Shown: one piece after another, positions 4,821 to 20,597 of the stretch
Position numbering within the stretch: position 1 is the stretch's first letter
How the letters are laid out: the number at the start of each line of letters is the position of its first letter
Source of the DNA: an uncultured Planktomarina sp.
GTDB taxonomy: Bacteria; Pseudomonadota; Alphaproteobacteria; Rhodobacterales; Rhodobacteraceae
Assembly (NCBI GenBank): GCA_905181815.1
Contig: CAJIZA010000006.1
Span: 29,440-93,439 of the forward strand
DNA: 64,000 nucleotides
Reading direction: 5' to 3'
Notes under the pieces: model-generated
What the model was told of the DNA's origin: nothing
What the model saw: the letters and a program-made list of their open reading frames with translations, nothing else
The model's database searches: none
Translations under genes and position numbers: made by a program

Positions 4821-6464
4821 ATGGCGCGTTATGTTTTTATCACCGGTGGTGTTGTGTCTTCTCTTGGCAAAGGCTTGGCCTCTGCAGCCCTAGGCGCCCT
4901 ACTGCAGGCCCGCGGATTTTCCGTAAGACTGCGGAAACTTGACCCCTATCTTAACGTTGATCCCGGCACGATGTCCCCCTTTGAGCATGGGGAGGTCTTC
5001 GTCACAGATGATGGCGCGGAAACGGATCTGGATTTGGGCCATTATGAACGGTTCACCGGTGTGGCTGCAAGGATGACTGATTCTGTCTCTTCGGGACGCA
5101 TTTATTCAACCGTGCTGGAAAAAGAGCGTCGTGGCGACTATTTGGGCAAAACAATTCAAGTAGTGCCCCATGTGACCAACGAAATTAAAGAGTTTTTGAA
5201 AGTCAGCGATGATGAGGTCGATTTTATGCTCTGCGAAATTGGCGGCACAGTGGGCGATATTGAAGGCCTGCCATTTTTCGAAGCCATTCGCCAATTCTCC
5301 CACGATAAGCCGCGCGGGGAATGTATTTTCATGCATCTCACGCTGTTGCCTTATCTCGCGGCCAGCGGAGAGCTGAAAACGAAACCCACGCAGCACAGCG
5401 TTAAAGAATTGCAATCCATTGGCATTGCTCCAGATATTTTGGTCTGCCGGTCCGAGCACCCCATTCCCGACAAAGAGCGGGAGAAAATCGCCCTGTTTTG
5501 CAATGTGCGCCGGGATGCGGTGGTCGCCGCCTATGATCTCAATTCCATCTATGAAGCACCCTTGGCTTATCACGCCCAGGGGCTTGACCAAGCCGTTTTA
5601 GATGCATTCAACATCTCCCCCGCGCCACAGCCTGACCTGAGCAAATGGGAGGACGTGCAAGACCGTGTAAACAATCCAGAGGGCGCGGTGAATGTAGCTA
5701 TTGTCGGCAAATACACACAGCTAGAAGACGCCTATAAGTCAATCAAAGAGGCACTCACCCATGGCGGCATGTCCAATCGGGTGAAGGTCAATGTCGAATG
5801 GGTTGATGCCGAAGTCTTTGATCACGAAGACGCCGCGCCACATTTGGAAGGGTATCACGCTATTTTGGTCCCCGGCGGTTTTGGTGAGCGCGGCACGGAA
5901 GGCAAAATCAAAGCGGCGCAATTCGCGCGTGAGCGCAAAGTGCCCTACCTCGGCATCTGCCTTGGTATGCAAATGGCGGTGATAGAGGCCGCCCGCAACC
6001 TGTCCAACGTCGCAGATGCTGGATCGGAAGAATTTGACCATGAAGCTGGCAAGAAGCGTTTCACCCCAGTGGTCTATCACTTGAAAGAATGGGTACAGGG
6101 CAATCATCGGGTGCGGCGCAACGAAGATGATGACAAGGGCGGCACCATGCGCCTTGGCGCCTATGATGCCACTTTGAACCCAGACTCATTGGTGGCTAAA
6201 ATCTATGGCAGCACTGCCATCGAAGAACGTCATCGTCACCGCTATGAAGTCGATATCCAATTTCGCAAGCAGCTAGAAGAAAAAGGGCTGATCTTCTCAG
6301 GCATGTCCCCAGACGGCCGATTGCCGGAGATTGTTGAGGTTAAAGATCATCCTTGGTTTATTGGTGTTCAATTTCATCCAGAATTGAAGTCCAAACCATT
6401 CGCGCCGCATCCTTTGTTCCGCGATTTTGTCCGCGCAGCCAAGGAAATGAGCCGTTTGGTCTAA
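4821..6464 (+). CDS. pyrG: CTP synthase
   Basis: The 547-residue enzyme makes CTP from UTP with ATP and glutamine. The N-terminal synthetase domain begins [20 protein letters not shown] with its P-loop, followed by [17 protein letters not shown] and the [10 protein letters not shown] motif. The C-terminal class I glutamine amidotransferase domain has its nucleophile Cys380 in GICLGMQ and the His/Glu pair in QFHPEL near residue 518. Length is normal. The following DUF1330 gene begins 18 bp later behind an AAGGAGG-type site. Confidence 0.98.
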
Positions 6465-6482
6465 CATACAAAGGAGGGCCCT

Positions 6483-6776
6483 ATGGCCAAAGGATATTGG
6501 ATTGCCCACAATCAGATCAGTGATGCTGAGGCCTATGAGGCCTATAAAATCGCCGCCGCGCCAGCCCTGCGCGCCTACCAGGGCAAATTTCTTGTGCGTG
6601 CGGGTGTGGCTGAATTCCCCGAAGGACAGCTGCGCGCCCGAACCATTGTGATAGAGTTTCCAAGCCTTCAAGTGGCGCAAGATTGCTACAACAGCGCGAC
6701 ATATCAAGCCGCAAAAGCTCTACGCACTCCGGTTTCGATTGGGGATCTGGTAATTGTCGAAGGATATGACGGCTAA
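6483..6776 (+). CDS. DUF1330 family protein
   Basis: A 97-residue soluble protein starting MAKGYWIAHNQISD, the usual beginning of DUF1330, a ferredoxin-like dimeric alpha/beta barrel family. The conserved FPSLQVAQDCYNSATYQ segment is present around residues 60-76. The biochemical role of the family is unknown. The ATG has a strong ribosome binding site (AAAGGAGG) 18 bp after pyrG, so it probably belongs to that transcript. Confidence 0.85.
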   Translation: MAKGYWIAHNQISDAEAYEAYKIAAAPALRAYQGKFLVRAGVAEFPEGQLRARTIVIEFPSLQVAQDCYNSATYQAAKALRTPVSIGDLVIVEGYDG

Positions 6777-6809
6777 TCATCGCCGCTGTCCCAACTCTTG
6801 AGGCCCCTT

Positions 6810-7229
6810 ATGTTTGCATCTTTGTTTTCGTCAAAATCCTCTGACAGCGCGCCAGATATCAGCGCCTCTGAAGCCATGGCCGCCCTGATGGTGCGGATTG
6901 CCAAATCTGATGATGAATATTCCACTACGGAAATCGCAAGGATCGATGCCGTGCTTGGCCTGCTGTATACATTGAACGCGGATCAAGCGGCCAGCCTGCG
7001 CCGGACTGCCGAGGCGCTTGAGGCCGAAGCGCCCGACACTGTGCGATTCACCCGCGCTATTAAAGAAGAGGTTCCCTATGAGGAGCGCTTCAATGTCGTG
7101 CGCGCCCTATGGCAAGTTGTTCTAGCCGATGGGGCCCGTGATGCAGAAGAAGACGCGTTGATGCGCCTTTTGGCAAGTCTGCTCGGCGTCAACGATCGCG
7201 ACAGCGCCCTGGCCCGCAAACAGGCCTAG
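6810..7229 (+). CDS. TerB-like (tellurite resistance B fold) protein
   Basis: A 139-residue all-helical protein with the acidic metal-binding-type pattern of TerB domains: ALMVRIAKSDDEYSTTEIARID and, in the second half, VLADGARDAEEDALMRLLASLLG. These proteins are cytosolic and often have a stress or membrane-associated role; despite the name, tellurite resistance is not implied. The ATG at 6810 is chosen because a GAGG site lies 7 bases upstream; a TTG at 6798 is also in frame. The PhnD-like gene begins 4 bases after its stop. Confidence 0.75.
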   Translation: MFASLFSSKSSDSAPDISASEAMAALMVRIAKSDDEYSTTEIARIDAVLGLLYTLNADQAASLRRTAEALEAEAPDTVRFTRAIKEEVPYEERFNVVRALWQVVLADGARDAEEDALMRLLASLLGVNDRDSALARKQA

Positions 7230-7233
7230 ACCC

Positions 7234-7950
7234 ATGATCGCGCATCTGCCCATGTATGATGTGCCAGCCAATCGTGCGGCACATCGGCGCCTGTGGCAGT
7301 CGTTGCAGGACCACCTGCCAAATGCGCCGAATTTCACCCCACCAAGCGAAGATTTCATGGTTGATTGGCTCAACCCAGAGCTCTATCTGTCCCAAACCTG
7401 CAGCCTGCCCTATCGCGCGGCGCTGCATGGCCAGGTGCAGCTGATTGCCACGCCAGACAATCAAATTCCGAATTGCCCTCCAGGCTATTACTGCTCAGTG
7501 CTCTTGGCCCGCCAGGGCGCGGTCCCAAACCTTGCGGCCAATGACTTTACCTTGGCCTACAATGAACCGCTGTCTCAATCAGGCTGGGCCGCACCGCAGT
7601 CCATTGGCCTCACCGGCGCCACAGCGCTGCAAACCGGCGGGCATGCAGCCTCGGCCCGCGCTGTTTTGGAGGGACGGGCTGATCTGGCTGCCGTGGATGC
7701 CCTGACCTGGCATTTTCTGACACGCGATTGGGACAAAGCGGCAGGGCTAGTGGTCTGCGCCACCACTCCTGCCACGCCAACGCTGCCCTATATCACCGCA
7801 TTGAGCCAAAACGCAGCCGCTCTCCGCGAAGCCCTGCGGCAAGCGATTCTCTCAATTGGTCCAAAAGACCAGCAAACACTTCAAATATTTGACCTAGTTG
7901 AGATCAACGCAGAGACTTATCTACAATTGCCGCTGCCTCCGGCCCCTTAA
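7234..7950 (+). CDS. PhnD-like periplasmic-binding-fold protein without signal peptide
   Basis: The 238-residue product resembles the phosphate/phosphonate-binding (PhnD-type) group: it starts with IAHLPMYDVP, has a central hinge region and ends with an AALREALRQAILSIGP helix. There is no N-terminal signal peptide or lipobox and no cognate permease or ATPase of the PhnCE type nearby, so it is unlikely to act as a transporter component as read here. It is probably coupled to the TerB-like gene 4 bases upstream. Ligand and role are unknown; a cytosolic sensor or enzyme-like use of the fold is possible. Confidence 0.65.
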   Translation: MIAHLPMYDVPANRAAHRRLWQSLQDHLPNAPNFTPPSEDFMVDWLNPELYLSQTCSLPYRAALHGQVQLIATPDNQIPNCPPGYYCSVLLARQGAVPNLAANDFTLAYNEPLSQSGWAAPQSIGLTGATALQTGGHAASARAVLEGRADLAAVDALTWHFLTRDWDKAAGLVVCATTPATPTLPYITALSQNAAALREALRQAILSIGPKDQQTLQIFDLVEINAETYLQLPLPPAP

Positions 7951-8028
7951 TTTAGGCAGATGCCGCTTTTAGATTGCGAGACGCGCCTTTCCTCGCCTAA
8001 TATCTGCTCTGGTAGGATGGAGGTTTTC

Positions 8029-8802
8029 GTGAACGACCAAAATATACCCGTGATTGAAATAAAAGGTCTCCATAAAGCCTATGGTGATCTTGAGGTTCTG
8101 AAGGGCGTCGACATCACCGCAAAACGTGGCGATGTGGTGGCACTTATTGGCTCGTCTGGCTCTGGGAAATCCACTCTGCTGCGCTGCTGCAATATGCTGG
8201 AGATCAGCCAAGAAGGCACGATTCTTTTCCAAGGTGAGGCCGTCCGCTGGAACTCTCAGGGCCACAGCCGGCGTCCAGCAGATCCCGCTCAAGTCACCCG
8301 GCTGCGCACCAACCTGTCGATGGTCTTCCAACAGTTCAACCTTTGGGCGCATATGACCATCTTGCAAAATGTCATGGAAGCTCCGGTAACCGTGCTCAAG
8401 CAGGACAAATCCGAGGTAGAATCCCGTGCCCGTGCGCTTCTAGATAAAGTGGGTATTGGCGAAAAATGCGATGTCTACCCCACCCAGCTGTCCGGCGGGC
8501 AACAACAAAGGGCTGCCATCGCCCGCGCCTTGGCTATGGAACCAGAAGCAATTTTGTTTGATGAACCCACTTCCGCCCTTGATCCAGAATTGGAGCAAGA
8601 GGTGATCGGCGTCATCAAGGATCTGGCCGCGGAAGGGCGCACCATGCTAATCGTCACCCATGATATGGCCATGGCGCGCGATGTGGCCAATCATGTTATT
8701 TTCTTGCACCAAGGGGTGATTGAGGAACAAGGTCCCCCCGAGACCCTCTTTAGTGCACCGAAATCACAACGGCTTCAGCAGTTTCTTTCTGCCGTCGCTT
8801 AA
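8029..8802 (+). CDS. polar amino acid-type ABC transporter, ATP-binding subunit
   Basis: A 257-residue HisP/GlnQ-type ATPase that powers uptake by the two permeases encoded downstream. Walker A GSSGSGKST, Q-loop MVFQQFNLWAH, signature LSGGQQQR, Walker B AILFDEP and a switch histidine in IVTHD are all visible. The GTG at 8029 is preferred because GGAGG lies 5 bases upstream at 8019-8023; an ATG at 8017 and one at 7960 are in frame but are within or before that site. It opens the cluster of import and gamma-glutamylation genes that runs to 17599. Confidence 0.93.
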   Translation: MNDQNIPVIEIKGLHKAYGDLEVLKGVDITAKRGDVVALIGSSGSGKSTLLRCCNMLEISQEGTILFQGEAVRWNSQGHSRRPADPAQVTRLRTNLSMVFQQFNLWAHMTILQNVMEAPVTVLKQDKSEVESRARALLDKVGIGEKCDVYPTQLSGGQQQRAAIARALAMEPEAILFDEPTSALDPELEQEVIGVIKDLAAEGRTMLIVTHDMAMARDVANHVIFLHQGVIEEQGPPETLFSAPKSQRLQQFLSAVA

Positions 8803-8835
8803 CAAAACTCAGCCACATATCTTAGGGAGATACAT

Positions 8836-9549
8836 ATGAACAAGCTGATCTTGACCACCGCCATTTTGGCACTGACCGCTGGCATGTCTTTTGCCGATAC
8901 AATCCGGATGGGCACCGAAGGTGCCTACCCCCCCTATAACTTCATCAACGATGCTGGCGAAGTTGACGGTTTCGAGCGTGAATTGGGTGATGAGCTCTGC
9001 GCGCGTGCCATGTTAACCTGCGAATGGGTTGTCAACGACTGGGACAGCATCATTCCAAACCTGGTGTCCGGCAACTACGACACTATCATCGCCGGCATGT
9101 CGATTACAGCTGAACGTGATGAGGTTATCGACTTCACACAAAACTATACCCAACCTGATCCGTCTGCTTATATGGCACTCTCGGCTGATGTGGATCTCTC
9201 AGGTGCAGTGATCGCCGCGCAAACCAACACCATTCAAGCCAACTTTGTTGCCGCCACTGGCGCCACACTTGTGGAGTTTGCAACACCTGAGGAAACCGTT
9301 TCTGCAGTGAAAAACGGTGAAGCCGATGCGGTGTTGGCTGATAAATCCTATCTCACCCCCGTGGCAGAGAGCGATGCCGATCTGGTACTATTGGCGCAAC
9401 AAGAGTTGATCGGTGGCGGCGTCGGCATGGGGCTCCGAGAATCCGATGCTGAGCTGCGCGACAAATTTGACGCAGCCATCGCCTCTATGAAATCGGATGG
9501 GTCATTGAACGCCCTGATTGCCAAATGGAGCGTCGGCGAACAGTTCTAA
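8836..9549 (+). CDS. periplasmic amino acid-type substrate-binding protein
   Basis: A 237-residue solute receptor of the family 3 (HisJ/ArgT-like) group. A Sec signal peptide ends around residue 20 (MSFA/DT). Ligand-pocket markers are EGAYPPYNF, the DWDSIIPNLVSGNYDTIIAGMSIT core and a C-terminal DGSLNALIAKWSV. The receptor captures the substrate in the periplasm and delivers it to the permeases. The family binds amino acids, opines or small amines, and the specificity cannot be read directly. A good ribosome site (AGGGAG) precedes the ATG. A strong hairpin follows the stop, as is common for abundant binding proteins. Confidence 0.93.
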   Translation: MNKLILTTAILALTAGMSFADTIRMGTEGAYPPYNFINDAGEVDGFERELGDELCARAMLTCEWVVNDWDSIIPNLVSGNYDTIIAGMSITAERDEVIDFTQNYTQPDPSAYMALSADVDLSGAVIAAQTNTIQANFVAATGATLVEFATPEETVSAVKNGEADAVLADKSYLTPVAESDADLVLLAQQELIGGGVGMGLRESDAELRDKFDAAIASMKSDGSLNALIAKWSVGEQF

Positions 9550-9562
9550 ATTACGACCTTTT

Positions 9563-9586
9563 GGGGGCGGGTTCATCCTCGCCCCC
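9563..9586 (+). terminator. intercistronic hairpin after the binding-protein gene
   Basis: GGGGGCG (9563-9569) pairs with CGCCCCC (9580-9586) around a 10-base loop. No U-run follows, and the same-strand permease genes continue at 9763. It is better read as a partial terminator or 3' stabiliser that raises binding-protein mRNA over permease mRNA than as the operon end. The following 176 bases up to 9762 show no gene. Confidence 0.6.
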
Positions 9587-9762
9587 ATTGCGCCAGAACA
9601 CCGCCGCATTAGACGCCGTTATAGCTTAAGAATAAACAATCGCCGAAACAGGCCACCCGACGCCAAACCGAAGGTCCCAGTCCGATTTTTAACTATTGTT
9701 CAGATCCAAGCCTCCTTACCAGCCTGCCCTGGCTCAGCTGCTATCTGACCACGGGCAAACAC

Positions 9763-10551
9763 ATGTTGTTTTATCAATCCTTCGCAACTGTGCTCATCCT
9801 CTTGGCTGTCACTGCACCTGCGGCGCTTGTGTTTGGCTTTGGCGGCGCCACCCTGGCCCGCGCCCAGCTTTTGCCATTACGCCTTTTCGGCAAAACCTAC
9901 ATCTCCGCTGTGCGCGGCGTACCCGATATCGCTTTCTTCCTGTTTTTTGTCATCGCCCTAGATCAAGGCTTCGAATGGCTGCGCCATCAAGCCCTTTGCC
10001 CCGATTGGAACGCACCTATTCGCCAGGGCAATGATTTCGTTGTCTGCGCTGCTGCCAAGCTGCCCTTGGGCACTGCCCCACAATATGTGCATGAGATTTA
10101 CGGATTTTTCACTGCGGTTCTGACCTTTGCAATTGTCTTCGGAGCCTTTGCCGCCAATGTCCTCTACGGCGCCATGCGCGCTGTGCCCCAAGCCCAGATA
10201 GAAACGGCACAGGCCTATGGTATGCGGCCCGTGCAAGTGTTTTGGCGCGTTCTAGTGCCGCAAATGTGGGTATATGCCCTGCCTGGCCTTGCTAATCTTT
10301 GGATGGTCTTAATCAAGGCCACACCACTGTTGTTTTTGCTTGGCGTAGAAGACGTTGTTTACTGGGCCCGCGAATTGGGCGGCACGAAACAAGCGAAATT
10401 CTCTGCCTACCCCCATGGTGACTGGCGCATGCAGTATTTTCTGTTTCTGCTGGTCTTTTACCTCGCCTTTACCAAACTCTCTGAAGTGGTGCTTGAACGC
10501 GTGATGAAACGCCTCACACATGGGCAAGGCACATTGGGGGTACCCTCATGA
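9763..10551 (+). CDS. amino acid-type ABC transporter permease (first)
   Basis: A 262-residue HisQ/HisM-family inner membrane protein with about five membrane segments. SAVRGVPDIAFFLFFVIAL is the usual start of the permease core, and the cytoplasmic coupling loop reads AQIETAQAYGM, the EAA-type motif that contacts the ATPase. About 45 polar residues between the second and third membrane segments (around residues 75-115) make it longer in that loop than simple HisM proteins. The ATG overlaps nothing upstream; the next permease starts in an ATGA overlap with its stop. Confidence 0.9.
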   Translation: MLFYQSFATVLILLAVTAPAALVFGFGGATLARAQLLPLRLFGKTYISAVRGVPDIAFFLFFVIALDQGFEWLRHQALCPDWNAPIRQGNDFVVCAAAKLPLGTAPQYVHEIYGFFTAVLTFAIVFGAFAANVLYGAMRAVPQAQIETAQAYGMRPVQVFWRVLVPQMWVYALPGLANLWMVLIKATPLLFLLGVEDVVYWARELGGTKQAKFSAYPHGDWRMQYFLFLLVFYLAFTKLSEVVLERVMKRLTHGQGTLGVPS

Positions 10552-11351
10552 GCTGCCAGCAAACCATTCTGGACTATGGGCTGCGCTCTTTGGGCTATGG
10601 CGAACGCCTTCTGCCCAAGTCGGATTTCACCCTCTGCCAACATTTCACGCTGATTGGCTCGGGCCTCATTTGGAATATTTATTTCGGAGCTTTGGCGCTT
10701 TTGATCGGATTTTTCATTGCCAATGCAATGGCTCTCGCCAAGGCCAGCCCCCGTGCGATCCTGCGCCAGCCGGCTGAATGGTTTATTTTGATTTTCCGCG
10801 GGTCCCCGCTATTTATCCAATTTTTCTTGGCCTATTTCATCTTTCTGCGCCTCAAGCAGCAAGGCCTTCTGCCTTGGCTGACCGCGGCACAATTTGGGGC
10901 GCTCTTGGTGCTTATCCTCAACACCGCCGCCTATTCTGCCGAAATTTTTTACGGCGCGTTGCGCTCCGTGCCCAATGGAGAGGTCGAAGCCGCCGATGCC
11001 TATGGCCTGACGGGCTGGTCGCGCTTCCGCCTTGTGATCTGGCCCACCAGCCTACGTCTGGCTTGGCCGGCCTACACCAATGAGGCAATTTTTCTGTTCC
11101 ATGCGACCACCTTGGTATTCTTCTCAGGCTTTCCAGCCTGGCAACAGCGCGGCGATGCCCTCTATTACGCCAGCTATTTCGCAGATAAAACGTTCAATCC
11201 CTTCGTCGCCTATCCCATTTTGGCTTTTTACTTCATCCTACTAACTTTTGTGATCATTGGCATTTTTGGCCTTGTCAATGCGCGTCTCAATCGACATCTT
11301 CCAAGCCAGGCGCGCCCGAAGCTGCGTTATAGGCCACAGGTCATCAGATGA
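10548..11351 (+). CDS. amino acid-type ABC transporter permease (second)
   Basis: A 267-residue partner permease that should pair with the preceding one as a heterodimer. The first part holds a soluble N-terminal stretch (to about residue 25), then membrane helices; FRGSPLFIQFFLAYF and the coupling motif GEVEAADAYGLTG are visible. The start is coupled to the preceding gene by an ATGA overlap at 10548-10551, and its own stop overlaps the next gene in the same way, indicating one tightly translated unit. Confidence 0.9.
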   Translation: MSCQQTILDYGLRSLGYGERLLPKSDFTLCQHFTLIGSGLIWNIYFGALALLIGFFIANAMALAKASPRAILRQPAEWFILIFRGSPLFIQFFLAYFIFLRLKQQGLLPWLTAAQFGALLVLILNTAAYSAEIFYGALRSVPNGEVEAADAYGLTGWSRFRLVIWPTSLRLAWPAYTNEAIFLFHATTLVFFSGFPAWQQRGDALYYASYFADKTFNPFVAYPILAFYFILLTFVIIGIFGLVNARLNRHLPSQARPKLRYRPQVIR

Positions 11352-12625
11352 GTAAATCCCTTCGTGTCGCAGCTGTTGATCTCAATGGTCAATTACGTGG
11401 CAAACGCGTCCCCAAAGGCATGAGCAGCAAGCAAATGCGCATGCCGCTGTCCGTGCTCAATATTGATGTGTTTGGGGCAGATATCGAAGAATCGCCACTG
11501 GTGTTTGAAACCGGCGATCAAGATGGCATTATGGAGCCGGTGGGCCGTGATCCTGTGCCTCTGCCTTGGGTGGCTGGCGCGGCGGAATTGGACCTACGGG
11601 TAATGCACAACGAAGACGGCTCCCCCTTTGAGGGCGACCCCCGCATTGCGTTGAGCAGTGTTTTGGACCGTTATGCCCGTCATGGCTGGCAGGTTATTGC
11701 CGCCTGTGAGCTCGAATTTTTCTTACTCGAAGATGGCTGCAATCTTACTCCACCGTTGAACCCCAAAACCGGCCGCCGGTTGACTGGAACAGAAATTTTG
11801 TCCCTGCGGGAATTGGATGGGTTCGATCTCTTCTTCAACGATGTGGCCGAAGGGGCAAAGCTGATGGGGATCGGTGATTTGACCATCACCACAGAAGCCG
11901 GTGTTGGGCAGTTCGAAGTCACGATGACCCATGGCCCAGCGCTTCACATCGCCGATAATGTAATTTTTCTCAAAGAATTGATCAAAGGCACCGCGCACAA
12001 TCACGGCATGGCTGCAACCTTCATGGCCAAACCCTTTTCCCAAGAGAGCGGCAACGGGCTGCATACGCATTTCTCAGTTATCAATCAGGCGGGTGAAAAC
12101 ATCTTCTGCAGCCAGAACAACTTGCAGTCCGCAGTTGCAGGCTGCCTAGAAGCGTTCGAGGCCAGTACGCTGTTCTTCGCCCCCTATGCCAATAGTTTTG
12201 AACGTTTCGTAGCCAGCGCCCATGCTCCGACCTCCGCCACCTGGGGCTATGAAAACCGCACCGTTGCAATGCGCATTCCCAGTGGTCCAGAAGCAGCCAC
12301 GCGGATTGAACATCGCGTGGCGGGCGGCGATGCTAACCCTTATTTGCTGTTTGCTGCCATTTTTGGCGCCGCTATAGAAGGTATAGAGCGCAAAGCTGTA
12401 CCGCCCGCTCCAATTGAGGGCAATGCCTATGAACAGCCCATACAGCCGCCTGGTCTGCTGCCAGATCTTTCTGCGGCGATTGAAGGGCTTGAGGCGCCAC
12501 TCCTTAAACACTTCATGCCCCCTCTCATTTTGGAAAATCTCGCGGCCACAAAATCACAAGAACGCGATCTTTTTGATAAGCTCTCAGATCATGATGCCCT
12601 CATGGCCTTGCTTGATACTGCCTAA
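11348..12625 (+). CDS. glutamine synthetase-like gamma-glutamyl ligase (first of two)
   Basis: A 425-residue member of the GlnA/PuuA superfamily. Metal-binding and catalytic motifs are in place: ACELEFFLLED, TTEAGVGQFEVTM, the metal histidine in GNGLHTHFS, the active-site NRTVAMRIP and RIEHRVAGGDANPYL. It lacks the adenylylation-site tail of housekeeping GlnA and has a short N-terminal domain. Together with its position after an amine/amino-acid importer this favours ATP-dependent gamma-glutamylation of an imported amine over ammonia assimilation. The start overlaps the permease stop (ATGA). The exact acceptor substrate is unknown. Confidence 0.85.
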   Translation: MSKSLRVAAVDLNGQLRGKRVPKGMSSKQMRMPLSVLNIDVFGADIEESPLVFETGDQDGIMEPVGRDPVPLPWVAGAAELDLRVMHNEDGSPFEGDPRIALSSVLDRYARHGWQVIAACELEFFLLEDGCNLTPPLNPKTGRRLTGTEILSLRELDGFDLFFNDVAEGAKLMGIGDLTITTEAGVGQFEVTMTHGPALHIADNVIFLKELIKGTAHNHGMAATFMAKPFSQESGNGLHTHFSVINQAGENIFCSQNNLQSAVAGCLEAFEASTLFFAPYANSFERFVASAHAPTSATWGYENRTVAMRIPSGPEAATRIEHRVAGGDANPYLLFAAIFGAAIEGIERKAVPPAPIEGNAYEQPIQPPGLLPDLSAAIEGLEAPLLKHFMPPLILENLAATKSQERDLFDKLSDHDALMALLDTA

Positions 12626-12686
12626 ACAAGTCTTTTCAAACATGCGGATCCTGCCTAGAGTTACGCATAATCTACGAGAGGTTCCA

Positions 12687-13388
12687 ATGCTGATCGGCAT
12701 TTTACAATGTGGCCATGCGCCGGGTGAGGTACGTGCCCAGCACGGCGATTTCGACTCTATGTTTGCCACTTTGTTTCAAAGCTATGACTTCACCTTCCAA
12801 ACCTGGGACGTGGTGGATGGAGATTTTCCCACCGCCATTGACGCGGCAGACGGATGGTTGATCTCCGGCTCCAAACATGGCGCCTATGAGGATCACGCCT
12901 TTATCCCCCCTTTGAGCGATTTGATCCGCGAGATTTATGCCAGCGCGCGCCCCATGGTGGGCATTTGCTTTGGCCACCAAATCATTGCGCAAGCGCTGGG
13001 GGGACGCGTGGAAAAATTTGAAGGGGGCTGGGCTATTGGCCGACATGACTACAGCTTTAACGGCCATGGCTCGGTGACGTTAAATGCTTGGCATCAAGAT
13101 CAAGTCACGGCCCTACCTCCAGAAGCGCAGGTCATCGGCAGCAGCCCGTTTTGTCAATTCGCTGCGCTGGTTTACGGAGAAAAAGCCTTCACGGTGCAGG
13201 CGCACCCTGAGTTTAGCAATTCAGTCTTCGATGATTATGTGAAATCGCGACGCTCAAGCCCAGTCTATCCGCCTGCCTCCATGATACGCGCGGATCAATC
13301 GCGCGATGTACCGATCCAAAATTCCACGATTGCTGAGGATATAGCCGCCTTCCTCAAAGGTAAGTATACACCGGAGATACGCTCATGA
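12687..13388 (+). CDS. class I glutamine amidotransferase-like hydrolase
   Basis: A 233-residue GuaA-N-like amidotransferase domain with nucleophile Cys94 in GICFGHQ and the His/Glu dyad in VQAHPEF near residue 173. In gamma-glutamylation pathways a hydrolase removes glutamate from the gamma-glutamyl product; PuuD does this in enteric bacteria but belongs to a different class I amidotransferase branch (peptidase C26), so this gene may be a functional replacement. The ATG at 12687 is chosen for the GAGAGG site at 12676-12682; the frame is open further left but overlaps the preceding gene. The stop overlaps the next start by ATGA. Confidence 0.8.
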   Translation: MLIGILQCGHAPGEVRAQHGDFDSMFATLFQSYDFTFQTWDVVDGDFPTAIDAADGWLISGSKHGAYEDHAFIPPLSDLIREIYASARPMVGICFGHQIIAQALGGRVEKFEGGWAIGRHDYSFNGHGSVTLNAWHQDQVTALPPEAQVIGSSPFCQFAALVYGEKAFTVQAHPEFSNSVFDDYVKSRRSSPVYPPASMIRADQSRDVPIQNSTIAEDIAAFLKGKYTPEIRS

Positions 13389-14737
13389 GTTGGAAAGACA
13401 GCCTACCGGCCAGTGCGAAAGCCTATATTGGCGAGCGGCAATTGGATGAGGTCGAATGCATCATCTCCGATTTTCCGGGCGTGGCGCGCGGCAAAGCGGT
13501 TCCCGCATCAAAATTTGCCAAGCAAAAGCATTTCTACCTGCCCAACTCTATTTTCTTGCAAACTCTCACTGGCGAATGGGCGGAAGCGGCGGGCGAGGAG
13601 GGCTGGGTGGAACCTGATATGACACTGCGCCCCGATCTTGACACCGCCACCGCAGCACCTTGGGCAACCGATGCCACCTTGCAGATCATTCATGATGCCT
13701 ATGATCGCGATGGAGCGCCGATACCAACCGCGCCACGCAATGTCCTCAAGCGCGTGGTGCAGTTGTTCCGCGACAAGGGGCTTGAGCCTGTGGTTGCGCC
13801 AGAGATGGAATTTTTTCTTGTTGCCCGCAACACAGATCCGGCGCAACCGATTGTGCCCATGATGGGGCGCTCGGGGCGGCCAGCGGCGGCGCATCAAGCC
13901 TACTCGCTTTCCGCTGTTGATGAATATGGCCCAGTTATCGACGACATTTATGACTTTGCCGAGGCCCAAGGCTTCGAAATTGATGGTATTACCCAAGAGG
14001 GCGGCGCGGGTCAGGTCGAGATAAATTTGCGCCATGGTGATCCGGTAAAACTCGCTGATGAGGTATTCTTCTTCAAACGCCTGATCCGCGAAGCGGCCTT
14101 GAAACACGATTGTTTTGCAACATTCATGGCCAAACCCATCGCCGATGAACCCGGCTCCGCCATGCACATTCACCACTCTTTTTTGGATGCAGAGGGAGAG
14201 AATATTTTTGTAGGCCCGCAGGGCGGTGAAACAGACGTTTTTTACCATATGATCGCCGGGCTGCAAAATCATTTGCCATCGGTCATTGCCATGCTGGCCC
14301 CCTATGTGAACAGCTATCGGCGCTACGTCAAAGATCACGCGGCCCCTATCAACCTCGAATGGGCCCGCGACAATCGCACTACAGGAATTCGCATCCCCCT
14401 GTCTTCGCCGAAGTCACGCAGGATCGAAAACCGTCTCGCGGGAATGGATTGCAATCCCTATCTTGGCATCGCCGCCTCCCTTGCCTGTTGCTATCTTGGG
14501 CTTGAAGATCAGGAGCGCCCAGACAAGCAATATCGGGGTGACGCCTATGACAGCGAAGAGGCGATCCCTTATGACCTCTTCACTGCGATGGATATTTTTG
14601 ACGATGCGAAGCGCCTACATGGGGTGCTTGATCCAGAATTTGCCCGGGTCTATTCGATCGTCAAGCGCACGGAATATAGTGAGTTTTTGCAGGTCATTTC
14701 AACTTGGGAGCGCGAGCATCTGTTACTGAATGTCTGA
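13385..14737 (+). CDS. glutamine synthetase-like gamma-glutamyl ligase (second, PuuA-like)
   Basis: A 450-residue ligase of the PuuA/GlnT type. Visible motifs are VAPEMEFFLVAR, the EGGAGQVEINLRHGDP block, GSAMHIHHSFLD with its metal histidine, NRTTGIRIP and RRIENRLAGMDCNPYL. The substrate-facing loops differ from the first ligase, so the two probably act on different amines or on successive steps, or form hetero-oligomers. Coupled to the amidotransferase by ATGA, and its end overlaps the oxidase gene by 8 bases. Confidence 0.88.
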   Translation: MSWKDSLPASAKAYIGERQLDEVECIISDFPGVARGKAVPASKFAKQKHFYLPNSIFLQTLTGEWAEAAGEEGWVEPDMTLRPDLDTATAAPWATDATLQIIHDAYDRDGAPIPTAPRNVLKRVVQLFRDKGLEPVVAPEMEFFLVARNTDPAQPIVPMMGRSGRPAAAHQAYSLSAVDEYGPVIDDIYDFAEAQGFEIDGITQEGGAGQVEINLRHGDPVKLADEVFFFKRLIREAALKHDCFATFMAKPIADEPGSAMHIHHSFLDAEGENIFVGPQGGETDVFYHMIAGLQNHLPSVIAMLAPYVNSYRRYVKDHAAPINLEWARDNRTTGIRIPLSSPKSRRIENRLAGMDCNPYLGIAASLACCYLGLEDQERPDKQYRGDAYDSEEAIPYDLFTAMDIFDDAKRLHGVLDPEFARVYSIVKRTEYSEFLQVISTWEREHLLLNV

Positions 14738-16034
14738 TTTTCTCTACGCCAACGATCAACTGGGCAGCTATCCGGCCAGCTGGTATGCCCAAAGCATTCC
14801 GGAGCACCCGGCCCGCCCGGAACTTACAGATGTGATATCTTGTGATGTCTGCGTCATTGGTGCGGGCTTCACCGGATTGTCTTGCGCGCTTCATTTGGCG
14901 CAAAAGGGCTATCGTGTCATCGTGTTGGATGCGCATCGGGTAGGCTTCGGCGCCTCTGGCCGCAACGGTGGGCAGGTGGGCTCGGGGTACAACCAAAATC
15001 AATTGACGCTTGAGAAAACACTGGGCCATGATGCGGCCCATCAGCTTTGGGATATGGCACAGGCCGCCAAATCTCTGACGCAAGACTTGGTGGCCCGCCA
15101 TGCGCCAGAGGCTGGCTATCAATCCGGTGTCGCCGAAGCAGACTTCAGCGCAAAAGACCGGGCCAGCAGCCACGCAAAGGCGGATTATCTGGCCCAGCAT
15201 TATGCCTATGAAAAGATTGATTGCCTCAGCCAATCGGATATCGCAGATCTGATCAAATCCCCACGCTATGCGGGCGGGATCATTGATTGGGGCGCAGGGC
15301 ATCTTCATCCGCTGCGCTACGCGTTGGGTCTGGCCAATGCAGCTGAGGCTGCCGGGGCGCGCATTTTTGAAAACAGCGCCGCAGTTTTGGTGCAAGACGG
15401 CCCACCGAGCCTGGTGCAAACCGCCAAAGGCCAACTGCGCGCCGGCTATGTCGTCCATGCCACCAATGGCTATCACAGCAGCCTCAACATTAAGCAAGCC
15501 GCCAAGGTGATGCCGATCAATAATTTTTTGGTGGCCACCGCGCCGCTGGACCGACCGCAAGAGGTTTTGCGCAAGCCCATCGCTGTGGCCGATAACCGGT
15601 TCGTGCTCAATTACTACCGACTCAGCCATGACAATCGGCTGATTTTTGGCGGTGGCGAAAGCTATGGTGCGCGGTTTCCAAACGATATTTTTGCCAAGGT
15701 CCGCAAGCCCCTGTGTGAAATTTTCCCACAGCTGGCCGATGTGCCGCTGACCCATGCCTGGGGCGGAACTCTAGGAATCACCACACGGCGTCTTCCGCTC
15801 TTTGCCCGTGTCGGGCCGCAGCAGCTGACCGCCTCTGGGTATTCCGGGCATGGGGTGGCTCTGGCTGGATTCGCCGGGCAAGTCTTGGCAGAAACGATTA
15901 CAGGCGATGCGGAGCGTTTCGACCTTCTGTCCCAGCTTCCCACCCCCTCCTTTCCTGGCGGGCAAAGCCTGCGCGGCCCAATCATGACTTTGGCGATGAC
16001 TTGGTTCGCTCTGCGCGATAGGCTAGGCCTATGA
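14730..16034 (+). CDS. FAD-dependent amine/amino acid oxidoreductase (PuuB-like)
   Basis: A 434-residue DAO-family flavoprotein. After about 40 residues with a W-Y-x-x-S-type lead (ASWYAQSIP) comes the dinucleotide-binding VCVIGAGFTGLSCALHLA, followed by the FGASGRNGGQVGSGYNQ flavin motif and a C-terminal GYSGHGVALAGFAGQ. This is the pattern of gamma-glutamylputrescine oxidase and relatives, which oxidise the amine of a gamma-glutamylated substrate to an aldehyde. Starts 8 bases inside the preceding ligase gene. No dedicated aldehyde dehydrogenase (PuuC) lies next to it. Confidence 0.87.
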   Translation: MSDFLYANDQLGSYPASWYAQSIPEHPARPELTDVISCDVCVIGAGFTGLSCALHLAQKGYRVIVLDAHRVGFGASGRNGGQVGSGYNQNQLTLEKTLGHDAAHQLWDMAQAAKSLTQDLVARHAPEAGYQSGVAEADFSAKDRASSHAKADYLAQHYAYEKIDCLSQSDIADLIKSPRYAGGIIDWGAGHLHPLRYALGLANAAEAAGARIFENSAAVLVQDGPPSLVQTAKGQLRAGYVVHATNGYHSSLNIKQAAKVMPINNFLVATAPLDRPQEVLRKPIAVADNRFVLNYYRLSHDNRLIFGGGESYGARFPNDIFAKVRKPLCEIFPQLADVPLTHAWGGTLGITTRRLPLFARVGPQQLTASGYSGHGVALAGFAGQVLAETITGDAERFDLLSQLPTPSFPGGQSLRGPIMTLAMTWFALRDRLGL

Positions 16035-16171
16035 CACAAGTTGCCCCTTGCAGATTCAACGCAAAATCCGTGCCTGCAACAGGCTGGTTCGGCGTGGGCA
16101 ATGGCACATGGGCTTGGGCTGGTGCGCCGCCCAAAAACAGCGGCACCGTTTTCATCCGGCCTCAACTCTAA
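16031..16171 (+). CDS. possible 46-residue protein coupled to the oxidase gene
   Basis: An ATG at 16031 overlaps the oxidase stop (ATGA), the same overlap used by three other gene pairs in this operon, and opens a 46-codon frame to TAA at 16169. The predicted peptide contains WFGVGNGTWAWAGAPP and matches nothing I recognise. No other stop lies between this TAA and the aminotransferase ATG at 16232, which is in the same frame, so it might instead be the remnant of an N-terminal extension or a chance frame. Too short for most gene callers. Confidence 0.35.
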   Translation: MTQVAPCRFNAKSVPATGWFGVGNGTWAWAGAPPKNSGTVFIRPQL

Positions 16172-16231
16172 AGGCCTACCGTTTTCGAGCTGGCGGCCCA
16201 AGCCCCGGCCCCTCCACACAAAGGTCCCCCT

Positions 16232-17599
16232 ATGAAAGACCAATCTCCCAACAGCTGGGAAGCACGGGCAGACGCCCATTCCTTCTACGGCTTCACCGAT
16301 TTACCAACAATTGAAAATCGCGGCGCAACTGTACTCACCCACGGCAGCGGCCCCTATGTTTTTGACGTACATGGCCGACAATTTTTAGACGCTAACTCTG
16401 GCCTTTGGAATATGGTGGCCGGATTTGATCACGCCGGCCTCGCACAGGCTGCCAAAGATCAATATGATCGCTTTCCCGGCTATCACGCCTTCTTCGGCCG
16501 AATGTCCGACCAAACTGTAATGCTGTCCGAAAAGCTCGTTGAGGTCTCCCCCTTTGAGAGCGGCAAGGTATTTTACACCAACTCTGGCTCTGAAGCCAAT
16601 GACACGATGGTCAAAATGCTTTGGTTCCTGCATGGATCAGAAGGCCATGATCAACGGCGCAAAATTATTACTCGCAAGAATGCCTACCACGGCGTCACGG
16701 CGGTATCGGCCTCAATGACCGGCAAGCCCTATAACGCTGTCTTCGGCCTGCCTTTGCCCGGCTTTTTGCATCTCACTTGTCCACATTATTGGCGAGAAGG
16801 CCGGCCAGGCGAGACAGAGGCGCAGTTTACCACCCGGCTTGCGGCTGAATTGGAAGACATGATCCTGAGTGAGGGCGCCGACACGATTGCCGGTTTCTTT
16901 GCAGAACCGGTTCTGGGCGCAGGTGGGGTCATTCCACCGCCAGAGGGCTATTTTCACGCGCTACAACCCATTTTGACAAAATATGGTATCCCCTTGATTT
17001 CCGATGAGGTTATTTGTGGTTTTGGACGCACGGGGCATACTTGGGGTTGCGAGGCCTATGGGTTTGTTCCAGATGCCATCATCAGCTCCAAAAACCTCAC
17101 GGCTGGATATTTCCCCATGGGGGCGGTCATTCTTGGCCCGCAATTGACCCAACGTTTGCAAGCGGCCTCGGCGGCGATTGAGGAATTCCCGCATGGGTTC
17201 ACTGCATCCGGCCATCCAGTCGGCTCCGCGATTGCCTTGAAAGCCATTGATGTCATCATGAATGAAGGACTTGCTGAGAATGTACGCCGCCTGACCCCCT
17301 ATTTCGAAGCGCATATGCAGCGGCTCCTTGAAAATCCAAATATCGGTGAGGCAAGAGGTAAGGGCTTGATGGGGGCATTAGAGGCCGTGCAAGATAAGGA
17401 CAGCAAAACCCCCTTCGACGCAGTGTTATCTGTCAGTGAGCGAATCGCGAACACCTGCACCGATCACGGGTTGATTTGTCGGCCTTTGGGGCAATCTATC
17501 GTGCTTTGCCCGGCGTTCATCTTTACCGAGGGCCATATCGATGAGATGTTTGAAAAGCTGGAAGCGGCTTTGAAGCAAGTGTTCCGTGAAGTGGCCTAG
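16232..17599 (+). CDS. class III aminotransferase (omega-amino acid/polyamine:pyruvate type)
   Basis: A 455-residue PLP enzyme. FYTNSGSEANDTMVKML forms the phosphate-binding region, RKNAYHGVT the aromatic lid, ISDEVICGFGRTG the pyridine-nitrogen aspartate and Lys287 in ISSKNLTAGY the Schiff-base lysine. The family moves a terminal amino group from putrescine, cadaverine, beta-alanine, taurine or similar donors to pyruvate. Its place at the end of the operon suggests it processes the diamine or amino acid released by the route. An AAAGG site precedes the ATG. A hairpin follows the stop. Confidence 0.9.
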   Translation: MKDQSPNSWEARADAHSFYGFTDLPTIENRGATVLTHGSGPYVFDVHGRQFLDANSGLWNMVAGFDHAGLAQAAKDQYDRFPGYHAFFGRMSDQTVMLSEKLVEVSPFESGKVFYTNSGSEANDTMVKMLWFLHGSEGHDQRRKIITRKNAYHGVTAVSASMTGKPYNAVFGLPLPGFLHLTCPHYWREGRPGETEAQFTTRLAAELEDMILSEGADTIAGFFAEPVLGAGGVIPPPEGYFHALQPILTKYGIPLISDEVICGFGRTGHTWGCEAYGFVPDAIISSKNLTAGYFPMGAVILGPQLTQRLQAASAAIEEFPHGFTASGHPVGSAIALKAIDVIMNEGLAENVRRLTPYFEAHMQRLLENPNIGEARGKGLMGALEAVQDKDSKTPFDAVLSVSERIANTCTDHGLICRPLGQSIVLCPAFIFTEGHIDEMFEKLEAALKQVFREVA

Positions 17600-17606
17600 G
17601 CATAGC

Positions 17607-17630
17607 GTCGGGCGGGGTCTTCCGCCCGAC
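17607..17630. terminator. hairpin between the convergent aminotransferase and phaR genes
   Basis: GTCGGGCGG (17607-17615) pairs perfectly with CCGCCCGAC (17622-17630) around a 6-base loop. It sits 8 bases after the aminotransferase stop and 7 bases from the phaR stop, so it can serve both directions. No strong U-run is present on either side. Confidence 0.75.
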
Positions 17631-17636
17631 ATTGCC

Positions 17637-18185
17637 TTATAATTTTGATAATTTTTCTTGCAGCTCCGCCAATTGCGATTTGATGTCGTTCAGATCATTG
17701 GCGCTTTCATTGGCGCTACTCTCAGTGCGGCTGGTCGGGGTTGAGCCAGACAGACCACCGGTCATGGCCTTCATAAAAGCCTCTTGCTGAGCCTTCATCA
17801 TTTCAAAGCCTGGCATGGCCGCCATAGGATTGACCACTGTGAGATTTTCCATGGCTTTGGATTGCCCATCGCGCAGCATCTCAAAGCTGGCTGCAAGAAA
17901 TTGCGGTACAATCGATGTGGCTTGTGAAGCGTAGGAGCGCACCAAATCAGTCAGGACATCCACCGGCAAAACATTTTCGCCACGGCTTTCGTGCTCGGCG
18001 ATGATTTGCAGCAAATATTGCCGCGTTAGATCATCACCAGATTTCAGGTCAATGATTTGTACCTCGCGCCCGTCTCGAATGAACCCAGCAATATCATCCA
18101 GAGTCACATAATCGCTTGATTCGGTGTTGTATAAACGCCGGCTCGCATAACGCTTAATCAGAAGCGGTTTTGTTTTTTTGCTCAT
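17637..18185 (-). CDS. phaR: PHA synthesis repressor PhaR
   Basis: A 182-residue regulator of polyhydroxyalkanoate granules. The N-terminus LLIKRYASRRLYNTESSDYVTL is the conserved PHB/PHA accumulation regulator DNA-binding domain, followed by the PHB_acc segment (VLTDLVRSY and VPQFLAASFEMLR) and a glutamine/leucine-rich coiled tail (DIKSQLAELQEKLSKL). PhaR represses phaP, and often itself, until it is titrated onto nascent PHA granules. Transcribed leftward after phaP; the phaP terminator lies between them, so phaR likely has its own promoter. Confidence 0.95.
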   Translation of the reverse strand: MSKKTKPLLIKRYASRRLYNTESSDYVTLDDIAGFIRDGREVQIIDLKSGDDLTRQYLLQIIAEHESRGENVLPVDVLTDLVRSYASQATSIVPQFLAASFEMLRDGQSKAMENLTVVNPMAAMPGFEMMKAQQEAFMKAMTGGLSGSTPTSRTESSANESANDLNDIKSQLAELQEKLSKL

Positions 18186-18251
18186 ATCCCAGCCCTTTGC
18201 AGCGACTCACCGCGCTTGCGCGGCACTGCGGCAATGCTATGCAAACGCAGC

Positions 18252-18286
18252 ACAAAAAGAAAGGGCGCAGCAAACGCCGCGCCCTT
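18252..18286 (-). terminator. rho-independent terminator of phaP
   Basis: On the minus strand AAGGGCGC (18286-18279) pairs with GCGCCCTT (18268-18261), followed by a T-rich run TTTCTTTTTG (18260-18252). It lies 57 bases beyond the phaP stop and separates phaP from phaR. Confidence 0.85.
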
Positions 18287-18342
18287 CAATACCGGTTCAT
18301 CTAAAATTAGGAGGACAGATAAACCTAACTCTCTATCGTAAC

Positions 18343-18765
18343 TCAGGCAGCTTTCGCAGCTTTGCCGGCTTTTTTCATGGCAGCTGTCGCTTCAGCGCTC
18401 ACTTCTTTGCCAGCAGCCATCATCAACTCAGCGGAGTCGAGTTGCACTTTTTTCGCAACACCGGCCATAGCAGCCATGTTTTCAGCAGCCATTTCAGCGG
18501 ACGAGGATGCAAAGTCTGTCAATGTCTGCGCTGCAGCCGCTGGATCTGCATTTACTTTTGACAATTCAGCAACTTTTTCCAAAGAAGCTTTTGTCCAAGC
18601 AGAAGAGATCTCAGCCGATTTCATGGCAGCCTCCAAAGCAACTGCAGACATTTTTTCGCCAAAAGCCACTTGAGCTTTGTATGCATCTTCAAAAGCAGAC
18701 ATATCTGCTGGGAATTTACCCATCATGTCTTTGAACATCGCGGTGTAGTCAGGTGTATTTGTCAT
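18343..18765 (-). CDS. phaP: phasin (PHA granule-associated protein)
   Basis: A 140-residue, alanine-rich, all-helical amphipathic protein typical of phasins, with a conserved phasin_2-like N-terminus (DYTAMFKDMMGKFPADMSAFEDAY) and an alanine/lysine-rich C-terminus (AAMKKAGKAAKAA). Phasins coat PHA granules and control their number and size. The ATG at 18765 has a GAGGA site 8 bases upstream; the TTG at 18780 is less likely. PhaR-type operator sequences lie 50-85 bases upstream. Confidence 0.92.
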   Translation of the reverse strand: MTNTPDYTAMFKDMMGKFPADMSAFEDAYKAQVAFGEKMSAVALEAAMKSAEISSAWTKASLEKVAELSKVNADPAAAAQTLTDFASSSAEMAAENMAAMAGVAKKVQLDSAELMMAAGKEVSAEATAAMKKAGKAAKAA

Positions 18766-18816
18766 GTGCTTAATCCTCAAGCGTGTTATCTATCTGAAGA
18801 TCATCTATATGCTGCG

Positions 18817-18848
18817 TTGCGGCATTGCAAGTTATTTCTGCACTGCAG
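18817..18848. promoter_or_regulatory. probable PhaR operator upstream of phaP
   Basis: CTGC-ACT-GCAG at 18838-18848 is a perfect palindromic arrangement of the TGC/GCA repeat reported for PhaR of Paracoccus and Rhodobacter (from memory, CTGC-N3-GCAG). A second inverted repeat, TTGC-N6-GCAA, lies at 18817-18830. They sit between phaC's stop and phaP's start on the phaP promoter side. The block TGCAGCATAAAT at 18844-18855 recurs in the phaC-phaZ gap. Confidence 0.65.
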
Positions 18849-18854
18849 CATAAA

Positions 18855-20597
18855 TTATTTCAACACATACTGCCCAGGTGCATTAACCAACTTCAGTTCT
18901 TTCGGAGGTTTCGGCTTGCGCACCTTAATGCTATTACCGCTTTGCAGCATCAACCAGTCTTTCCATGCAGGCCACCAACTGCCTGCGATGTAAATGGCCG
19001 AAGACTGCCAATCCTCTGGGCTCTCAGCCAAAGACTTCTGGGTGTAATAACCATATTTATTGCGCTGCGGTGGATTGATGATGCCCGCGACGTGTCCAGA
19101 TTCAGCCAAGATAAAATAGCGGTCGGCACCGGCCATTTGCTGCACGCCCCGATAGGATTGTGCCCAGGCGGCAATATGATCTGTCTCACAGGCCACCGCG
19201 CAGACCGGCACGACAATATCGCTCAATTGCAGCCGCGCACCGCAGACCTCAAACCCACCATCTGCGAATTGATTCTTTTGACAAAGCCCACGCAGATACT
19301 CAATCGCCATACGGCCCGGCAGGTTGGTACCATCGCCATTCCAATACAGCAGATCGAACGCCGGCGGCGTCTCCCCCATCATATAATGACGAATTGCAGG
19401 GCCATAGATCAGATCATTCGAACGCAAAAAGGAAAACGTCCGCGACATGAAGAATTTGTCTAAGATGCCATTCTCCTCCACCTCAGCCGCAATTCCATCC
19501 ACAAAGTCATTGCCTAAGAACACCGACATCTCCCCTTGATCGGAAAAGTCTGTCAGAGTGGTAAAAAGGGTGGCGGATTTAACCGATGTGTCACCGCGCT
19601 GCGCCAAAAGCGCCAGCGTTAGGGACAGGGTTGTACCTCCGATACAATAGCCCGTGGCATTGACCTGCGGCACGTCGCAAATCTTTTTGACCTGTTCAAT
19701 TGCGTTTAGAAAACCATCCTCAATATAGGTTTCGACACCCGTGTCACGCATAGACGCGTCTGGATTAATCCAGCTGACCACAAATAGCGTGAAGCCTTGA
19801 TCGACGATCCATTTCACCAAGCTATTCTCTGGCCGCAGATCCATAATGTAGAATTTATTGATCCAGGGTGGGAAGATTACTAAGGGCACCTCCTGCACCG
19901 TTTGCGTGGTTGGACTATATTGGATCAGCTCGAACAGGTGATTGCAGAACACAACTTTGCCCGGTGTCGTCGCGATATTGCTACCGACATCAAATGCGCC
20001 TTGATCGGCCAGGGTCACCATGAGATCGCCATTATTGGCCTCAATATCTCGCACAAGGTTTTCCAACCCCCGCACGAGGCTCTCCCCATCGGTCTCAACC
20101 GCCCGGGCCAAGGCCTGCGGGTTTGTGCCAAGAAAATTGCTTGGGCTGAACATATCCATGATCTGGCGGCTAAAGAAATCCAGCTTTTGCCGTTCACGCG
20201 TATCGAGATTGTCCATCTGCGCAACAGCCGTTTCCATCGCCTTGGTATTGAGCAAATACTGCTGTTTAATGAAATTAAAATAAGGGTGTTCATTCCACAA
20301 CGGATCTGAAAACCTGCGATCTGCAGGCGCGTTTTGACTGTCGACGAAATGCTGCAAAGATTGCCCCCAATAGGCGATTTGCTGCTCGATCATACGGGAT
20401 GGATTGCTCATCATCTCGGTGACATAGGCCGTTGCGGCCTTAATAAACAGATCTTGGCCAGGCCCCTGCAAGGCGGGTCGTACGGGTTTTTTATGGGAAA
20501 CCGCTGCCAAAAGCCGCTGGGTCAGCGCCTCTACACGTTGTAAATTTTTAGTCAATCGCTCTAATCCGAGCTCAGTGCTGCCGTTATCAGTTGTCAT
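18855..20597 (-). CDS. phaC: class I polyhydroxyalkanoate synthase
   Basis: A 580-residue enzyme that polymerises 3-hydroxyacyl-CoA into PHA at the granule surface. The lipase-like box GYCIGGT contains the nucleophile Cys318; the catalytic aspartate lies in the VACETDHIAAW segment and the histidine in ESGHVAGI. The N-terminal PhaC_N region (DPLWNEHPYFNFIKQQYLL) is complete and the C-terminus ends in the class I hydrophobic/basic tail. Length is normal. It is divergent from phaZ and upstream of phaP on the same strand. Confidence 0.96.
   Translation of the reverse strand: MTTDNGSTELGLERLTKNLQRVEALTQRLLAAVSHKKPVRPALQGPGQDLFIKAATAYVTEMMSNPSRMIEQQIAYWGQSLQHFVDSQNAPADRRFSDPLWNEHPYFNFIKQQYLLNTKAMETAVAQMDNLDTRERQKLDFFSRQIMDMFSPSNFLGTNPQALARAVETDGESLVRGLENLVRDIEANNGDLMVTLADQGAFDVGSNIATTPGKVVFCNHLFELIQYSPTTQTVQEVPLVIFPPWINKFYIMDLRPENSLVKWIVDQGFTLFVVSWINPDASMRDTGVETYIEDGFLNAIEQVKKICDVPQVNATGYCIGGTTLSLTLALLAQRGDTSVKSATLFTTLTDFSDQGEMSVFLGNDFVDGIAAEVEENGILDKFFMSRTFSFLRSNDLIYGPAIRHYMMGETPPAFDLLYWNGDGTNLPGRMAIEYLRGLCQKNQFADGGFEVCGARLQLSDIVVPVCAVACETDHIAAWAQSYRGVQQMAGADRYFILAESGHVAGIINPPQRNKYGYYTQKSLAESPEDWQSSAIYIAGSWWPAWKDWLMLQSGNSIKVRKPKPPKELKLVNAPGQYVLK

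Follow-up and report, generated by a model that had tools for sequence, protein, structure and literature searches.

The window analyzed here is a 64,000-nucleotide stretch of a contig from an uncultured Planktomarina sp. (Rhodobacteraceae), whose genome spans 2.54 Mb in 7 contigs and is 92% complete. At 8029–17599 it carries nine open reading frames (ORFs), all on the + strand, in which an amino acid-type ATP-binding cassette (ABC) importer is followed by two predicted gamma-glutamyl-amine ligases, an amidotransferase, an oxidase, and an aminotransferase. The ORF list, NCBIfam, and Pfam confirmed all nine with the expected families, in agreement with a first-pass annotation that had reported an importer, two ligases, an amidotransferase with Cys94, a flavin adenine dinucleotide (FAD) oxidase, and a class III aminotransferase; Cys94 was likewise confirmed. 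The genes are as follows.

8029–8802, + strand: abcA, HisP-like ATP-binding protein of a polar-amino-acid ABC importer; GTG start, alternative in-frame ATG at 7960
8836–9549, + strand: sbp, periplasmic binding protein of the basic-amino-acid/opine type
9763–10551, + strand: permQ, importer permease (Pfam BPD_transp_1), ArtQ/HisQ-like, below NCBIfam cut-offs
10548–11351, + strand: permM, importer permease (Pfam BPD_transp_1), HisM-like, below the NCBIfam cut-off
11348–12625, + strand: lig1, PuuA-side predicted gamma-glutamyl-amine ligase; 4-base overlap with permM
12687–13388, + strand: gat, class I amidotransferase fold (PF00117), presumed gamma-glutamyl hydrolase; C94/H173/E175
13385–14737, + strand: lig2, SpuB-like predicted gamma-glutamyl-amine ligase
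14730–16034, + strand: fad, DAO-family FAD oxidoreductase (Pfam DAO), PuuB-like
16232–17599, + strand: at, class III omega-transaminase, a lineage-specific ninth gene 197 bases past fad

Repeated overlaps of 4–8 bases had been described for these genes, which is correct for four of the eight junctions (−4, −4, −4, and −8) and incorrect for the other four, where gaps of 33, 213, 61, and 197 bases occur. No aldehyde dehydrogenase was encoded within 8029–17599, as expected from the earlier statement that the operon lacks PuuC. None of the importer genes, nor lig1, lig2, gat, or fad, received an NCBIfam name over its cut-off; abcA, for example, scored 335.6 bits against HisP (cut-off 466) and matched Pfam ABC_tran.

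Gene order across relatives, the comparison proposed with the first-pass annotation, was examined in a sample of 100 loci made up of the best 80 named loci by ligase-1 match and 20 hand-picked from ligase-1 matches in family genomes. We used the 85 loci with at least 4 kb upstream and at least 4.5 kb downstream of lig1 and dropped 15 for short flanks; all were chosen by ligase-1 similarity, and near relatives of lig1 are therefore over-represented. The eight genes abcA-sbp-permQ-permM-lig1-gat-lig2-fad were present in order and on one strand in 71/85 loci (69 exactly, two with one doubled gene), and this order is therefore not due to chance. Five further loci held partial sets other than the importer-free kind weighed below. 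The three nearest named loci among the matches listed were from Planktomarina, with ligase 1 89–92% identical, and a ligase-1 relative was found in 171 of the 198 family genomes searched (E ≤ 1e-60), some share of these being other paralogs. Mean pairwise identities among 25 random non-Planktomarina loci were 62% for lig1, 57% for gat, and 59% for fad, versus 75% for lig2 and 69–80% for the importer genes. On a Paracoccus plasmid (L145:6654-11302), the importer and lig1 were kept with no gat-lig2-fad adjoining them, a pattern suggesting that, of the enzymes, lig1 has the tightest link to the importer. Inspection by eye of the ORF lists of ten loci found no single recurrent pathway-linked gene between permM and lig1 or before lig1.

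The two ligases were more similar to E. coli PuuA than to either of two glutamine synthetase (GS)-type proteins of their own genome, which encodes a separate GlnA. Local-alignment identities to PuuA, the genome's own GlnA, and its third synthetase were 34%, 29%, and 30% for lig1 and 36%, 27%, and 28% for lig2. In a midpoint-rooted glutamine-synthetase tree of 42 rows, in which the program warned of long branches (including those of PuuA and IpuC), lig1 formed one group with E. coli PuuA (support 100/99) and lig2 fell in the sister group with homologs from Aeromonas, Burkholderia, Sinorhizobium, and Aliiroseovarius (100/99). GlnA lay outside the lig1/lig2/PuuA group (98/95), and so did IpuC, the gamma-glutamylisopropylamide synthetase of a Paenarthrobacter plasmid reference, which is like the two ligases in being a GS-superfamily amine ligase. 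The separate branches rule out a recent duplication of the two genes.

Residue conservation told a similar story. Nine positions that bind ATP, metal, and glutamate in the GS fold, which we take to be the catalytic set of GlnA, were invariant in 71/71 sequences of each ligase. The flap Glu of GlnA was replaced by His in 71/71 lig1 sequences and by Ala (69/71) or Ser (2/71) in lig2. Aligned with the genome's own GlnA and with PuuA, both ligases had lost the GlnA ammonium site, that is, the Asp50 motif DGSS and the flap Glu327 in what we assume to be the GlnA numbering. On the sequence evidence, namely loss of the ammonium-site Glu and placement with PuuA, away from GlnA, we reject GlnA-type ammonia enzymes, and the earlier proposal of a gamma-glutamylation route with two different ligases is supported. 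A gamma-glutamylation route is thus well supported as a prediction. Downstream of the Aeromonas homolog of lig2 come a class III aminotransferase and two binding proteins resembling PotF (532 and 455 bits with that model, cut-off 636), a Spu-like order. Our label of lig2 as SpuB-like rests on these neighbors. We take SpuB and SpuI to be ligases and SpuA an amidotransferase.

The remaining enzymes also resembled, with differences, those of a gamma-glutamylation pathway. In gat, Cys94 was conserved in 71/71 sequences and His173 and Glu175 in 70/71, with one unread X. The first-pass annotation had called this amidotransferase distinct from PuuD, and that view stands: gat had no BLAST match to PuuD at 1e-2, it scored higher with PF00117 (57 bits) than with Peptidase_C26 (25.9 bits) while PuuD scored 45.6 and 233.7 bits, respectively, and its best solved relative in a PDB sequence search was gamma-glutamyl peptidase 1 (79.6 bits), presumably a plant protein. 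fad was 38% identical to E. coli PuuB over 427 aligned columns; an identity as L-pipecolate oxidase was rejected, with 178 bits against the AmaA model (cut-off 600). Eight matches to PuuC occurred elsewhere in the genome, the best at 42% identity. The last gene, at, exceeded the cut-off of NCBIfam PRK06105, was 26% identical to PuuE, and had 4grx as its best PDB match, followed by 5ztx and the pyruvate transaminases 3nui and 4e3q.

The class III aminotransferase had been treated as a core part of the set, and the wider sample contradicts this. We looked for relatives of the window's class III transaminase and for a DegT/DnrJ-family (sugar-type) aminotransferase (PF01041 in the one copy scanned; e.g., L064:14912-16108). 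Over the whole examined stretches, at identity thresholds of 60% and 55%, respectively, 10 loci had the transaminase, 45 the DegT-family enzyme, two had both, and 32 neither. In the 3 kb that follow fad, the transaminase was present in 10/85 loci and the DegT-family enzyme in 44/85. Two copies of the DegT enzyme matched no NCBIfam model over cut-off. The nearest DegT relative in the genome of the window (L206, C1:133582-134760; 37% identity) contains an in-frame TGA, which may reflect gene decay or an error in the sequence.

The substrate-binding protein (SBP) of the importer belongs to Pfam SBP_bac_3 and is not of the PotF/PotD type. Its best PDB sequence match was 3i6v (349 bits). An AlphaFold model built from 46 sequences had a mean predicted local distance difference test score (pLDDT) of 95 (a single-sequence model, pLDDT 39.8, was not used), and its top Foldseek match was again 3i6v, at 74% identity. 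This entry is titled as a His/Glu/Gln/Arg/opine family-binding protein of Silicibacter pomeroyi crystallized "in complex" with a ligand; a review, in disagreement with that title, assigns 3I6V to A. variabilis (PMC8786288). With 89% identity to the SBP of the Ruegeria sediminis operon, 3i6v belongs to the group of this operon. The next PDB matches included binding proteins for nopaline, octopine, and lysine/arginine/ornithine (LAO), and sbp falls in the same LAO/HisJ/NocT-OccJ family. R94 and T132 were conserved in 71/71 sequences and D169 in 70/71. By analogy with LAO, we take R94 to be the alpha-carboxylate Arg and D169 the alpha-ammonium Asp; by the presumed LAO positions, the side-chain pocket residues seem to be different. 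With 3i6v nearest and the alpha-amino-acid anchors kept, the importer was rightly described as amino acid-type (HisJQMP-type). It points to a basic amino acid, and the nitrogen-rich compound taken up is probably a lysine-like one.

This importer type may be paired with gamma-glutamylation chemistry a second time. On a Pseudosulfitobacter plasmid (L146:7953-15638), an SBP of the "lysine/arginine/ornithine" kind, with 36% identity to sbp, lies beside a PuuA-side synthetase placed next to lig1 in the tree and an FAD enzyme with 51% identity to PuuB; permeases and a gamma-glutamyltransferase gene are present there too.

Gene order, families, intact catalytic residues, and importer type can be read directly from the sequence. 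From these we infer the reactions, the ligands, and the link between what is imported and what the ligases use. We put about even odds on a Rhodobacteraceae catabolic operon that imports a basic alpha-amino acid and gamma-glutamylates and degrades a related C4–C5 diamine. In this scheme the ABC importer would take in lysine or a near relative, and a ligase would couple glutamate to an amine at the expense of ATP. The PuuB-like FAD enzyme would oxidize the glutamylated amine, yielding an aldehyde for conversion to the acid by an aldehyde dehydrogenase from another locus, and the amidotransferase-fold hydrolase would free the glutamate. A transaminase, class III here and DegT-family in many relatives, would move the remaining amino group. 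The amine would most likely be cadaverine or putrescine, as C4–C5 diamines related to the imported compound, and the substrates of lig1 and lig2 would differ. A study of Phaeobacter inhibens reports conversion of 13C-lysine to cadaverine, 5-aminopentanoate, pipecolate, and 2-aminoadipate (PMC5653290). If Planktomarina behaved in the same way, imported lysine would be decarboxylated and the resulting cadaverine glutamylated. The first-pass annotation had suggested an amine other than putrescine, and this appears plausible because sbp is of the basic-amino-acid/opine type and a separate spermidine/putrescine-like SBP is encoded elsewhere in the genome.

Several observations weigh against this reading. 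Lysine is no more than the presumed ligand of 3i6v. The second SBP, at C1:663039 of the same genome, was nearest among solved proteins to a spermidine/putrescine-binding protein (276 bits), with sensors of gamma-aminobutyric acid and opine-type proteins lower among its PDB matches, and it matched nothing in NCBIfam at 1e-10. As part of a candidate polyamine importer, it could let polyamines reach the ligases without the importer described here. Nine of the 85 loci had lig1-gat-lig2-fad with no importer gene detected over the identity thresholds in the examined stretch. The supply of cadaverine is a further difficulty. We searched for PF00278 decarboxylases in eight operon-bearing genomes and for PF01276 in two of them, the Planktomarina genomes G000 (that of the window) and G045. 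PF00278 had one match each in G000, G045, G123, and G187, two each in G003 and G188, and three each in G055 and G141. Nine of these enzymes, including both of G003, were LysA-sized and over the LysA cut-off, and all eight genomes have LysA; five others (L160–L164, in G055, G141, and G188) were below every NCBIfam cut-off. Five of the eight genomes (both Planktomarina, G123, G187, and G003) thus showed PF00278 only as LysA, and PF01276 was absent from both Planktomarina genomes. PF00282 enzymes numbered one each in G000, G045, and G123 and two in G187, and the sole one of Planktomarina resembles aromatic decarboxylases. With only LysA, no PF01276, and an aromatic-type PF00282 enzyme, the step from lysine to cadaverine is not accounted for in Planktomarina.

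The strongest competitor, which we consider possible though doubtful, is a plain putrescine/cadaverine gamma-glutamylation locus of the Puu/Pau/Spu kind, whose importer, of the HisJ type, would either have changed its specificity to a diamine or be a mere chromosomal neighbor. The locus is like the E. coli Puu pathway (puuA, puuB, puuC, puuD, puuE, puuP) in having a PuuA-type ligase, a PuuB-type oxidase, and a class III aminotransferase. It differs in its two ligases, the lack of PuuC, a PF00117-type amidotransferase without a PuuD match, and an amino acid-type ABC importer in place of PuuP. Another parallel comes from Pseudomonas spuABCDEFGH-spuI (and pauA/B/C/D), where one locus combines an ABC importer for polyamines with genes for gamma-glutamylation and for an aminotransferase (PMC10606097, PMC9397018). 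Because of this precedent, the gene set is less exceptional than the first-pass annotation suggested. The Spu importer, however, is for polyamines (SpuD/SpuE) whereas that of the window is of the HisJ type, and a PuuB-like oxidase is held inside the operon here. The grouping of lig1 with PuuA and of lig2 with the Spu-like Aeromonas ligase beside PotF-like binding proteins, the PuuB-like fad, and the nine importer-free loci would all suit a polyamine locus. Yet the importer adjoins the enzymes in 71/85 loci and in two partial sets, lig1 overlaps permM, and the Paracoccus plasmid has the importer with lig1 and no adjoining gat-lig2-fad. The retention of the alpha-amino-acid anchors in sbp, and the presence elsewhere in the genome of a separate SBP nearest to a spermidine/putrescine-binding one, also argue against it. 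In Pseudomonas putida, knockouts indicate that transamination and gamma-glutamylation both serve C6 amines (PMC11879879).

A direct route, in which a ligase would attach glutamate to one of the amines of lysine or ornithine, oxidation would follow at the opposite end, and the glutamyl group would then be removed, seems unlikely. It would give the glutamyl group a part like that of the succinyl and acetyl groups in other basic-amino-acid routes, and it would agree with an amino acid-type importer whose last gene is overlapped by lig1, with the two Planktomarina genomes that have no PF00278 enzyme beyond LysA and no PF01276, and with a lig1 that evolves faster than lig2 on a branch of its own. 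Two ligases and a PuuB-like oxidase nevertheless fit diamines at least equally well, the characterized ligases nearest lig1 and lig2 presumably use amines and not amino acids, and no such pathway was found in the literature searched for it. We regard as similarly improbable the broader proposition that a major marine group uses an undescribed route of this kind, with imported lysine (or ornithine) itself gamma-glutamylated in place of the saccharopine or decarboxylase route, and with many members having recruited a sugar-type (DegT) aminotransferase where Planktomarina has an omega-transaminase. Least probable is another amine (ethanolamine, methylated amines, histamine, or aromatic amines), with lig1 and lig2 acting on different monoamines: the GS superfamily includes ethanolamine and isopropylamine ligases (PMC6529630, in part; IpuC annotation) and the genome encodes one aromatic-type decarboxylase, but IpuC falls outside the lig1/lig2/PuuA group and the presence of a transaminase as well as an oxidase would best suit a compound bearing two amino groups.

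Under the preferred reading, a basic amino acid imported and a related diamine degraded, the chemistry would be of a known type; unusual would be the way its parts are combined and the probable nutrient. Relative to known gamma-glutamylation loci, the operon stands apart in its importer type, the PuuB-like oxidase held within it, its amidotransferase type, and its variable last gene. We found no description of the operon in the literature searched, a search that subscription papers mostly lay outside. A Ruegeria pomeroyi transporter screen assigned polyamines to potFGHI, an importer other than this one, and its main text mentions neither lysine nor ornithine (PMC10130141). Given the ligase-1 relatives in 171/198 family genomes, the function probably serves much of the Rhodobacteraceae, including major users of marine dissolved organic nitrogen, and the route would tell how such cells draw on a basic amino acid or diamine for their nitrogen and carbon.

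Three further features lie beside or within the operon:

6810–7229, + strand: TerB-family protein (Pfam TerB, 113.6 bits); listed ORF from TTG at 6798, ATG at 6810
7234–7950, + strand: PhnD-like protein (PF12974; Pfam 60.8 bits, cut-off 27)
about 9562–9587, + strand: GC-rich stem-loop just 3' of sbp, seen in the sequence and by folding

The TerB-family gene was present in 76/85 loci and the PhnD-like gene in 55/85, nearly always upstream. A signal peptide was not obvious by eye in the PhnD-like protein. The 146-base stretch with the stem-loop folded weakly better than its shuffles (z −1.37), and the structure is perhaps an mRNA stabilizer or attenuator. A search of 4000–20000 against Rfam, up to an E of 0.5, found no known RNA regulator. 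Promoter-like matches (12 versus a shuffle mean of 7.7) and terminator-like matches (12 versus 13.6) were near shuffle counts and little informative. Downstream, at 17637–21957, Pfam identified a polyhydroxybutyrate (PHB) set comprising a PHB accumulation regulator, a PhaC synthase, and a PHB depolymerase, in which a small protein without a match (18343–18780) occupies the phasin place.

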